Shown: positions 299-3,326 of the stretch, piece by piece
Numbering within the stretch: the stretch's first letter is position 1
Layout: the number at the start of each line of letters is the position of its first letter
Source: Lachnospiraceae bacterium
GTDB taxonomy: Bacteria > Bacillota > Clostridia > Lachnospirales > Lachnospiraceae
Assembly (NCBI GenBank): GCA_017484135.1
Contig: JAFUTQ010000039.1
Span: 1-40,635 of the forward strand
DNA: 40,635 nt
Direction of reading: 5' to 3'
The notes under the pieces: generated by a model
The model's database searches: none
What the model saw: the letters and a program-made list of their open reading frames with translations, nothing else
Told to the model about the DNA's origin: nothing
Program-made: the position numbers and the translations under genes

Positions 299-1501
299 TT
301 AAATCGGCAGATAAACGCGGGTAGTCACAAGCGTTCCCGTCTGCTCTTGCTCAAAGCTTCCGTCATATCGTTCGCAAACCTCCCGGATCTTGCCCAAGCC
401 ATAGCCGTGATTCCGGTTTTGCGCGGGACCAAAGGGAAGCTTTTTTTGCAGCGTTTGCTGCGGCTTTGCAGAGTTGCGAACGGTAATGGCAAAATAGCTG
501 TTTCCGCCTTCAAAGCCGATGGAAAGCTCAGCGTTCGGGAGGTGTGCGCTTTGTATGGCTTTGCGTGCATTGGACAATATGTTGGAAAACAGCGTACACA
601 GATCCATGGAGGTCACGGTATGGATCTCCGGCAGTGAGCCCGTAACTGTGATTTGCAGATGATCGTCTGCATCACTGGTCAGCTCGCAATTCATAATGGA
701 ATCAATAATCATATTTCCGGAGAAATAAAACTTTTTTTGAAATGAAAAAGAGGTACGCAGATCATGAAAATAGGATTCCAGCTCGTCGTAATTTTGTTCG
801 TCAAGCAAATATTGGATGCAGAGAAAGTGATTGTTGATATCGTGGCGGAATGATCGGAGTTCTCTGTCCAGAATGTCCATACGCTGGTAATTTTCCAATT
901 GCTTTTCGAGCAAAAACGCGTTCTCGTATTCGTCCATCTGAGCCTGTATCAAAAAGTGTTGTACAAAATAAGTAAGAAAAATCATGGAGACGGAAGCCAG
1001 AAAAAGGATCACAATGTGAAAAATCAGCGGTTCCAATCCGGCATCAGCAGGCTGCCAGAATTTGTCGGGACGGCTGGTGAATGCAATTGCAAGAAACAGC
1101 CAATAACCGATCACATGCACAAGCATAAGCTTCACATCCAGATAAAAGACAGCAATAATCAGAAACAGGAAGGTACAGCTCCACACGTGATCCGAAGGAA
1201 AGATCCAGAATACAAGATTATATTGAAAAAAGAGGGAGATCGTAACAAATAGTTTGATTTGTCTGAAGTGGGTGGGAAAAAATGAGGAATCAAGATGATT
1301 TTTGATAATCAGATAGACAGACACAGCCAGATAAAGAAACTGAGTTCCGTCAAAAAAGAAAATCATGTTCCAGGATACCTCCGGGTAAAGGTGACAAAGC
1401 TTACAACAGGTATAAAAAATGCCTGCACTGAGGCAATTTCCATAGGTAAGCAGCAATGTATACATGTGAACATTTTCCCAATATTTTTTGATCAGATTCA
1501 T
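299..1501 (-). CDS. GHKL-type sensor histidine kinase with six-helix membrane sensor
   Basis: This is a membrane sensor kinase of the AgrC-like GHKL class, about 400 residues long. About six hydrophobic segments fill residues 10-185. A linker follows, then a phosphoacceptor motif FRHDINNH (His about 220), an N-box SNILSNARKAI and a G-box HGYGLGKIREV, as expected for HPK10-type kinases that phosphorylate LytTR response regulators. The frame opens at 1567, but ATG 1501 is preferred because GAGG lies about nine bases upstream. No response regulator is adjacent. Its membrane half resembles that of the divergent chemoreceptor: YPEVSW against YPTVSW, and in both a QYN motif followed by an IP/FP turn and a LD-KL motif. 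The ligand is unknown. The kinase assignment is firm; the pathway is not. Confidence 0.88.
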   Translation of the reverse strand: MNLIKKYWENVHMYTLLLTYGNCLSAGIFYTCCKLCHLYPEVSWNMIFFFDGTQFLYLAVSVYLIIKNHLDSSFFPTHFRQIKLFVTISLFFQYNLVFWIFPSDHVWSCTFLFLIIAVFYLDVKLMLVHVIGYWLFLAIAFTSRPDKFWQPADAGLEPLIFHIVILFLASVSMIFLTYFVQHFLIQAQMDEYENAFLLEKQLENYQRMDILDRELRSFRHDINNHFLCIQYLLDEQNYDELESYFHDLRTSFSFQKKFYFSGNMIIDSIMNCELTSDADDHLQITVTGSLPEIHTVTSMDLCTLFSNILSNARKAIQSAHLPNAELSIGFEGGNSYFAITVRNSAKPQQTLQKKLPFGPAQNRNHGYGLGKIREVCERYDGSFEQEQTGTLVTTRVYLPI

Positions 1502-1651
1502 GATGTGGATACCTCGTCCGTGGATCGTTTTTCGTGAGTAATTCTGCAACAGCTTGCATGACTGCATGTAATCGTTGTCACAAATCTATTTTATCAGTTT
1601 TCCCTGCTGTTTCAAGACAGGAAATGAAAAGAAATCCCCTTCTGGATTTCA

Positions 1652-1681
1652 GAAAAGACCGATAAATGACGAAAAATGACC
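1652..1681. promoter_or_regulatory. Three tandem GTC(A)TTT repeats between divergent genes
   Basis: Read on the minus strand, GGTCATTTTT, CGTCATTTAT and CGGTCTTTTC follow each other with a period of about 10 bases. They lie between the divergent kinase and chemoreceptor genes. Helical-turn spacing suits an operator bound by a LytTR-like or other regulator. This is inferred from spacing only; there is no match to a named consensus. Confidence 0.3.
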
Positions 1682-1784
1682 GTTTGATGTTTTTGCAGCG
1701 TACAGGGCTGGAAACTTTGATACAATCAGAGAGAAGCAGACAGGGAAACCGTGTTCGGCAACAGATCAAACAGGGGGTTATTTC

Positions 1785-3326
1785 ATGAATACAAATGTGA
1801 TTGAGGAGTACATGAATACAGTGTATGCCGTGGTGCTTTTGACCATTACCGGAGCATGTATGTGTGCGGGCACGGTATTTTCGATTATGAAGCTGATCGG
1901 ATTTTATCCAACGGTTTCCTGGCCTGTGCTTTTGATTTTTGTGGGAACCTGCGTGCTTTATCTTTTGGTGGGAATCTGGTTTATCCGGCATGGGTATTAC
2001 CGGAATGAGAATGGGGATAAGCGGCTTATTCCGCACATGTTCAGAAATACGAAAATCTTTGTTCTTGTCATTATGACCATTCAGTATAATTTTCTGGCTT
2101 ATATGATCCCTACCAGGCAGCTATGGGCATATGAGTTTTTCTTTATCATATTGGCGTCTCTTTTGCTTGACTTGAAATTGACAGTTGCTGCGTCCATTTC
2201 CATTTTGACATCGCTTGGCATCTCCCATGCAATCCGGGCCTCCGTTATGCTTCCCGTGGTCGGTGCAGATTTTGTTTCGGAATTGATTCTGCAGATTATA
2301 GCATTGTTTCTTTCCACCGGTGCAATTATCATGGTAAATTATCTGATTTCCCATTACCTGATTCATGTAAAGCAGGATGAAATGAATGCGAATTATAACA
2401 GGGTGCAGCAGGTACTTACGGCGGCAACAACCATTGTCGGGGATCTGGGCAGAACCAGTGAGCAGCTGGCAGAGATTTCCCAGAATGAGAGCGCGTCCAC
2501 AGAGGAGCTGTCCGCAACCAGCGAAAATCTGTTAAATGAGAGCAACAGCGTATTTGAAGCAACGCAAAGGAGCAGGGAGAATATGGATTCTCTGGAGCAG
2601 TGCTCCGAGGAGCTTAGCACGAATATTTCCGAGGTCGATCAGATTTCCCGTAATCTGCTGCGTGCATCCGAACAGAACGAGAGTCTGCTCAAGGAGCTTC
2701 AGACAAGAAACAGTGAGGTTGTGACAGCTTCCGATCAGACCAAACAGTTGTCGCAGGAGCTGTTAAAATGTGTGGATGAGATCGGGATTGCCCTGGAGGT
2801 CATCAACAATATCTCGTCACAGACGGCATTGCTTGCCCTGAATGCTTCGATTGAAGCGGCCAGAGCAGGGGAGGCCGGAAAAGGGTTTGCCGTGGTTGCG
2901 GAATCGGTAGGAGGTCTGGCAAGCAATACCAAGGAATCTCTCGGAGAGATACAGGCAGTCATTACCAATCTGCAGTTAAATGTGGAGCGGATGGAGCACT
3001 CGATCCTTCAAAGTGCGGACAGTCTGGAAAAGCAGGAAGAGGTGTTTGAACAAACCTTCGGCAGTGTCAGCGAAATGATCGGAGTAATCCGTACAGCACT
3101 TGCGGCGATTTCTGCCATGCAGGAGGTTCACGACAGGCAAAATGAGATTATTGCAACAACGGTATCCGTAAACGAGCAGATTCTGGAGGCAGTGCAGTCC
3201 GAGAACCGGCAGTTTACCAACATTGCCGAACTGATTGAGCATAATTCGCTGGATGTGATGAAGATTACGCAGCAGGCGGAAGAATTGGATGGAATGGTAG
3301 GAAAGCTGCGGCAGACGCTTCAGTAA
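1785..3326 (+). CDS. Methyl-accepting chemotaxis protein with six-helix membrane sensor
   Basis: This is a 513-residue chemoreceptor. Residues 1-195 form about six hydrophobic helices with no extracellular domain. From about 200 on it is a long coiled coil. The signalling hairpin lies at about 335-385 and contains [20 protein letters not shown], the conserved tip that contacts CheA and CheW. After the tip it reads [12 protein letters not shown], which departs from the usual ADEVRKLAE pattern. No HAMP domain is obvious. The ATG at 1785 follows AGGGGG. The membrane part is homologous by eye to that of the divergent kinase at 299-1501, so both may sense the same signal. No other chemotaxis genes are in the window, so it presumably works with a core array encoded elsewhere. 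Confidence 0.9.

Follow-up and report, generated by a model that had tools for sequence, protein, structure and literature searches.

The window analyzed here is a whole 40,635-nucleotide stretch of DNA from a Lachnospiraceae bacterium (contig JAFUTQ010000039.1). Near its left edge, genes for a sensor histidine kinase and a methyl-accepting chemoreceptor are transcribed divergently, and the two encoded proteins begin with the same type of membrane sensor domain. The features that concern us are as follows.

299–1501, reverse strand: GHKL sensor histidine kinase, 400 amino acids, with the HATPase domain at about 305–610; relatives share the start Met.
902–1501, reverse strand: kinase residues 1–200, forming a membrane sensor domain predicted to have six helices (alignment and profile).
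1658–1687, forward strand (toward the chemoreceptor): predicted LytTR tandem site, with 9-bp repeats at 1658–1666 and 1679–1687, 21 bp apart.
1721–1726, forward strand: TACAAT, the predicted −10 element of the promoter that would serve the chemoreceptor; it lies 33 bp past the tandem site, and no good −35 is present.
1785–3326, forward strand: methyl-accepting chemoreceptor, 513 amino acids, with the signaling domain at about 2700–3155.
1785–2399, forward strand: chemoreceptor residues 1–205, forming a membrane sensor domain predicted to have six helices (alignment, profile, and AlphaFold2 model).

The kinase frame is open up to 1567, and its coordinates were set to 299–1501 because seven related clusters (P0013–P0019) begin at the Met of 1501. 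Pfam places HATPase_c_5/GHKL at kinase residues 298–399 (E 4e-14) and MCPsignal at chemoreceptor residues 306–457 (E 3e-26). Relatives are similar in size, with kinases of 392–401 amino acids and chemoreceptors of 513–518. The chemoreceptor has the features of the methyl-accepting chemotaxis protein (MCP) class, and the MCP hairpin tip is conserved among the aligned chemoreceptors; no match to a HAMP domain was found in the window chemoreceptor. CheW domains are present in the same genome, and che and flagellar genes were recognized by eye on its contig C1.

A first-pass annotation of this locus had claimed that the N termini of both proteins align nearly collinearly. This is confirmed by BLASTP, which aligns kinase residues 2–191 with chemoreceptor residues 4–199 at 32% identity and 51% similarity (6 gap positions in 196; E 2e-28). 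The N-terminal ∼196 residues are homologous, and the motifs singled out by the annotation (YPxVSW, FR..K(I/L)FV, QYN, P, W, LD(V/L)KL, and QDE/MDE) all lie inside the alignment. The profile comparison that it had recommended agrees. A single sensor-domain profile (A4, 22 rows) is significant on both window sensors, with E values of 6e-76 and 4e-73, both sensors being among its own rows. This domain is without a name in Pfam and NCBIfam, as neither library gave anything above its cut-offs for the N terminus of the kinase or the chemoreceptor.

An AlphaFold2 model of the chemoreceptor sensor (pLDDT 87.8) places the main helices at residues 5–37, 46–69, 83–107, 113–125, 130–150, and 163–204. The model has six membrane helices joined by short loops, with helix 6 continuing into the output, and this predicted structure has the same three-dimensional fold as the class III adenylate cyclase and CqsS-type domains. 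Only VIA-align re-scoring put adenylyl cyclase membrane domains first, among the rows compared, and a family outside those rows may also match. Foldseek gave no match of the model to PDB structures at E ≤ 0.001, and the sensor profile found no chain among PDB sequences up to E 10. The fold predicted for the sensor is that of the six-helix domain by which class III adenylate cyclases sit in the membrane, a domain whose likeness to the quorum-sensing receptor CqsS has been reported. The suggestion that the domain is undescribed holds in that no family library names it, but its predicted fold is already known.

The annotation had also proposed a survey for the divergent pairing, and the pairing does recur. 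Full-length kinases number seven genes in five of 397 genomes of the family (the window's genome G000, G147 and G131 with two each, G074, and G151). This survey scored at most four candidates per genome, and a search with the A4 sensor profile gave the same seven. A chemoreceptor with the same sensor adjoins the kinase at all six kinase loci (the window, L039, L041, L042, L043, and L044). At L039, a single chemoreceptor is flanked by two kinases, and at L044 the contig holds only the start of a divergent chemoreceptor (81% identity over 16 amino acids, E 2e-7). A plasmid search with the kinase returned 22 records, all below 60% identity and none covering 80% of the query; among the eight matches listed, the similarity begins at residue 103 or later.

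The sensor itself is more widespread. The A4 profile matches 29 of the 397 family genomes (G031 and G339 weakly), mostly in chemoreceptor-length frames. Among 398 phylum-wide genomes it matches three, namely the window itself, G752 (E 1e-23), which belongs to another family of the same class, and G653 (weakly, 5e-4). Other outputs joined to this sensor are GGDEF (L057 and L060), GGDEF-EAL (L057), and HisKA-HATPase-REC, with Hpt in L063 and without it in L068. The first-pass picture of a common six-helix sensor on two outputs stands as far as a multi-helix domain on the GHKL kinase and the chemoreceptor is concerned, and must be widened to a portable module since further outputs exist. Broken copies of the sensor-chemoreceptor gene, either split or cut short, occur at L058 (8073–9627), where the break sits near the sensor/output junction, and at L062 (7896–9512), L065 (7943–9530), L111 (6011–7560), and L116 (6018–6302). 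Decay, phase variation, and assembly error are all conceivable causes for these five genes.

Among the 80 sensor domains placed in a tree, the 14 GHKL kinase rows (near-copies among them) make up one side of a 100/100 branch; this branch, of length 1.57, sets them apart from their partner chemoreceptors. The GGDEF and HisKA versions cluster together, and the remainder are chemoreceptors; long branches meet in this tree, and its deep placements are unsure. With sensors ∼30% identical and the kinase sensors on their own long branch, the annotation's suggestion that one signal would drive both outputs does not follow from the DNA, which points instead to control of the chemoreceptor gene by the kinase and its LytTR regulator. 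The same branch, and the fact that kinase sensors are about 25%–34% identical to the window chemoreceptor sensor, favor an explanation by shared ancestry only. Both proteins would have inherited the domain and would now bind different ligands, such that the kinase gates the chemoreceptor gene and one cue gates another. Retention of the pairing and of the tandem promoter site at all six loci argues against this scenario, as does the recurrence of sensor sharing in a second family, and we consider it somewhat unlikely.

This second sensor family (A7/A8 type) was found in G031, where a response regulator (recognized by eye), a GHKL kinase (Pfam), and a chemoreceptor are consecutive. The N termini of this kinase and chemoreceptor are 33% identical (E 8e-23). 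A search of 385 family genomes matched 17, five of these more weakly than 1e-4, and G031 alone matches strongly in a frame as long as a kinase. Comparison of the A4 and A7/A8 families by hhalign gave a probability of 0.4, and a looser setting gave a probability of 5.9 (P 0.0064), which is not significant. The A4 profile weakly matches the G031 kinase (E 3.5e-6); otherwise, the two families agree in predicted fold only. The window's genome also encodes a chemoreceptor-length protein with a second-family sensor (G000:C80:25204–25764, E 1.9e-77).

All six kinases outside the window are followed, 17–150 bp downstream, by a response regulator of ∼240 amino acids. The four of these regulators run on Pfam all have Response_reg and LytTR domains, and the other two are 44%–64% identical to the rest. 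No recognizable response regulator is present downstream of the window kinase, at positions 1–298. The draft genome of the window has eight LytTR matches. One is an open reading frame (ORF) on the reverse strand of contig C20 (14984–15766) that is 64% identical to the L039 regulator, against 32% for the runner-up. This ORF, which begins 109 bp from the contig end, is this genome's orthologue of the relatives' regulators, and so a LytTR regulator, which the annotation had proposed to look for, does exist. The edge of the window beside the kinase holds one more feature.

1–257, no strand assigned: terminal part of a repeat present in several copies (a probable mobile element), lying at the contig edge some 41 bp beyond the kinase stop codon.

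Segments 47–257, 105–257, and 116–256 of the window recur at 98%–99% where contigs C48, C115, and C80 begin, and most of the final 141 bp of C20 is repeated at five other places. The C20 end and the window start, both of them repeats, share no overlap of 12 bases or more. Because such repeats, probably mobile elements, occupy both ends, the assembly seems to have been broken on both sides, and we infer that kinase and regulator are adjacent in this genome.

Having HATPase_c_5 and a LytTR regulator as partner (in relatives, and as its own orthologue on C20), the kinase resembles AgrC-type GHKL kinases in domain and partner. This combination, as well as a weak NCBIfam match to AgrC over kinase residues 27–247 (E 5.6e-5; 22.5 bits against a cut-off of 500), would be consistent with an Agr-like pheromone system in which the pair senses a processed peptide. 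However, the predicted fold matches the cyclase anchors, and related domains occur on chemoreceptors beside a ketosynthase-like gene, as described below. Furthermore, no agrB-like gene was noticed by eye among the ORFs neighboring the six kinase loci, although no profile search for agrB was made. A peptide pheromone system is therefore very improbable here.

The region between the two genes points to a target for the regulator. Published LytTR sites consist of direct repeats of 9 bp, of the form ACC... and in most cases separated by 12 bp, as in ACCTCTTAG-12 bp-ACCACTTAA; a position 10 bp ahead of the −35 is strongly preferred (PMC6193735). The window repeats are ACCGATAAA at 1658 and ACCGTTTGA at 1679. 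Two 9-bp ACC... repeats exactly 21 bp apart are oriented toward the chemoreceptor in all six kinase/chemoreceptor intergenic regions. The pattern ACC..[TA]-N15-ACC..T occurs in six of six toward the chemoreceptor and zero of six in the opposite direction, a count that is not independent, as the pattern was derived post hoc from the same six loci. It occurs in three of 372 control stretch-strands, some of whose loci overlap, and in none of 29 regions upstream of ketosynthase operons. A −10 box (TA.AAT) lies 33 or 34 bp past the site in all six regions, a spacing that was examined afterwards and had no control for that step alone. A regular expression for the classical LytTR consensus found little, and an earlier pass gave 9-bp direct repeats 21–22 bp apart in five of the six regions versus seven of 61 control intergenic stretches.

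The full pattern was also run on eight whole genomes with the distance fixed at 33 bp, at which the L039 and L041 sites cannot be detected. Its single match in the window's genome is the window site, and it recovered the pair loci of G131 (C56), G151, and G074. None was found in G056 and G366, which are of the same genus and lack a full-length kinase. Five other matches lie elsewhere (one in G147, three in G151, and one in G031), compared with four for a reversed control pattern in the eight genomes. Because the full pattern is unique in the window's genome and recovers the pair loci, the chemoreceptor gene seems to be among the main targets of the LytTR regulator. Since the regulator follows the kinase in relatives and the conserved tandem site is directed toward the chemoreceptor, expression of the chemoreceptor gene is probably turned on by the kinase. 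Two further sites were seen. One, with a LytTR-type tandem and a good −10 box, is apart from the kinase/chemoreceptor pair (L125, G151:C65:1054–1122). The other, at L039 (7322–7621), is a second tandem site, ACCGATAAA-N12-ACCGTTCCA, on the opposite strand upstream of G147's other kinase.

In relatives, away from the kinase (in G147, on a different contig), the gene preceding an A4-type chemoreceptor often encodes the domains ACP_syn_III and ACP_syn_III_C. Built from seven of these genes, a profile finds 14 genes in 12 of the 397 family genomes at 283–579 bits, whereas ordinary ketosynthases, exemplified by FabH in L085 and L086 (fab operons recognized by eye), reach at most 173 bits. The six best genes, all of them in the profile, each adjoin a sensor-chemoreceptor. 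Among the eight genes outside the profile, five are beside a chemoreceptor with a hydrophobic N terminus unmatched by A4 (L077, L078, L079, L080, and L084, the last with a small ORF intervening); the L078 and L080 chemoreceptors are of the second sensor family. The L082 (Pfam) and L083 (by eye) enzymes adjoin an AMP-binding ligase, and the L081 enzyme adjoins neither ligase nor chemoreceptor. Because there are 12–42 chemoreceptor matches per genome in the thirteen genomes counted, chance adjacency is estimated at about 1%–2%.

A scan of GTDB species genomes with five enzyme seeds gave 33 loci, a sample biased toward sensor-linked loci by the choice of sensor-linked seeds. A sensor ORF is directly downstream in 30 of them, comprising 28 intact chemoreceptors (L105 counted by hand) and the broken L111 and L116. 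At L118 (1012–3001), a degenerate ketosynthase remnant directly precedes a sensor-GGDEF gene (output assigned by Pfam), which links the enzyme to the sensor also with a non-chemoreceptor output and brings the total, this remnant included, to 31 of 33. The similar loci L099 and L117 have no adjoining sensor, and a second-family chemoreceptor is located about 3.7 kb away. In G752 (L073), the enzyme also adjoins a diverged sensor-chemoreceptor. Carriers of the ketosynthase-chemoreceptor operon include Lachnospiraceae bacterium 10-1 (L100) and Eubacterium sp. MSJ-13 (L101), whose records bear no MAG label.

The active-site Cys is kept in all 42 distinct enzyme members aligned, from which two L118 fragments were left out. 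The position of the FabH His is Ser in 39, Thr in two, and a gap in one, and that of the FabH Asn is Tyr in 41 and a gap in one. The two FabH controls (L085 and L086) read C-H-N, and the enzyme does not have this Cys-His-Asn active site. An alpha/beta hydrolase gene is upstream of the enzyme at L045 (8680–9462), L078 (6407–7192), and L080 (6335–7108), assigned by Pfam for L045 and L078; the hydrolase might release or degrade the enzyme product. In genome G315, an acyl-acyl carrier protein (ACP) thioesterase (PF01643, E 1e-26) is directly after a sensor-chemoreceptor (L049, 5912–6652), and this genome has a ketosynthase-chemoreceptor pair at a separate locus (L050).

It could be argued that the domain reports a property of the membrane, such as lipid composition, fluidity, potential, or redox state, rather than a diffusible molecule, and that the enzyme adjusts membrane lipids. 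Prediction places almost the entire domain inside the membrane, its loops being short, the neighboring enzyme is in the fatty-acid ketosynthase III fold family, and the thioesterase adjoins one copy. Against this, FabH's catalytic His and Asn are missing from the enzyme in every row with letters at those positions (41 of 42), and at least five of the 12 enzyme-bearing genomes (G144, G218, G276, G278, and G349) have a separate, ordinary ketosynthase III match at 118–135 bits. A chemoreceptor is also not needed for lipid homeostasis. On balance, we regard a purely membrane-property sensor as unlikely.

The interpretation that we favor, with some confidence, is that the window encodes a small circuit in which homologous membrane domains, predicted to act as six-helix receptors, sit on a kinase and a chemoreceptor, and the kinase, via the LytTR regulator, activates the chemoreceptor gene. 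The sensor domain may bind a small lipophilic molecule that reaches it through the membrane interior. The kinase would relay this signal to the regulator, whose presumed binding and direction of control would lead to more chemoreceptor synthesis. The HAMP-less chemoreceptor would then report that signal, or one related to it, to the CheA array, and the cell would swim with respect to the cue only after having met it. Both the class of ligand and its being common to the two receptors are what we infer. The likely maker of the cue, in relatives, would be the ketosynthase-III-like enzyme encoded beside chemoreceptors of the same type.

The neighborhood of the enzyme suggests a possible lipid-type cell-cell signal. 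A more tentative extension, somewhat less likely than not, is that Lachnospiraceae have a new form of such signaling. The Cys-Ser-Tyr ketosynthase-III-like enzyme would make a lipophilic autoinducer, and the cyclase/CqsS-fold domain would feed it into chemotaxis, cyclic di-GMP (c-di-GMP) signaling, and two-component transcription. The synthase-less receptor kinase of the window lineage would listen in and activate its chemoreceptor. Three observations limit the enzyme link, the first two of them speaking against such a signal. The window's draft genome (83% complete) has no ketosynthase III match of any kind by protein or profile search; of the four further genomes that bear the kinase, the enzyme (above 280 bits) was found in G147 and not in the remaining three; and among 27 genomes whose A4 sensor match is confident, seven carry the enzyme. 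Thus, the enzyme is mostly beside a chemoreceptor or sensor gene, yet the receptor is often without the enzyme. Receptors lacking it would fit either listening to others or other ligands.

Among open-licence papers, no described chemoreceptor-ketosynthase or shared-sensor system turned up. Gut Clostridia chemoreceptors commonly carry multi-helix membrane domains, and a 2025 PNAS ligand screen of these bacteria states that such MASE-type sensors were not included (PMC12415202). The present locus ties a multi-helix domain to a predicted fold, an apparent dedicated promoter site, and, in relatives, a possible ligand-making enzyme gene, and so makes the ligand question directly testable. It would also offer a bacterial case for what the membrane domains of adenylate cyclases sense, and suggests that a kinase can gate the synthesis of a chemoreceptor whose receptor domain resembles its own. 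If the proposal is true, these bacteria have an undescribed way to sense one another.

Several known systems can be compared with this one. CqsS and LqsS and the cyclase domains (Rv1625c/Cya, AC5, and AC9) are alike in predicted fold, with no PDB sequence match here, whereas the outputs in the window are a GHKL/LytTR kinase and a chemoreceptor. CqsA is the enzyme of the CqsS system; the enzyme beside the sensor in relatives is ketosynthase-III-like, not CqsA. The Pseudomonas aeruginosa diguanylate cyclase ImcA (8wcn), reported to be an iron-linked c-di-GMP module in Pseudomonas, is 9% identical to the sensor. The MASE-type chemoreceptors of gut Clostridia also have sensors of several membrane helices and no clear outer domain, and in the set of that study, the two thirds of transmembrane chemoreceptors that remain are 4HB and MASE-type together (PMC12415202). 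They differ in that no Pfam MASE match was found here and in that this sensor is associated with a kinase and a promoter site and, in relatives, with the gene of an enzyme. The enzyme shares ACP_syn_III, ACP_syn_III_C, and the active-site Cys with FabH and the KSIII-like acyltransferases PqsD, CerJ, and ChlB3, and differs from FabH in having Ser/Thr for the His and Tyr for the Asn; ChlB3 and CerJ have a Cys-His-Asp active site (PMC9573744). Finally, HdrRM/BrsRM-type LytTR sites have the same repeat geometry as the window site, which recurs at all six loci by a pattern derived post hoc. Those sites front a bacteriocin gene or an autoregulated operon, whereas the window site fronts a chemoreceptor gene.

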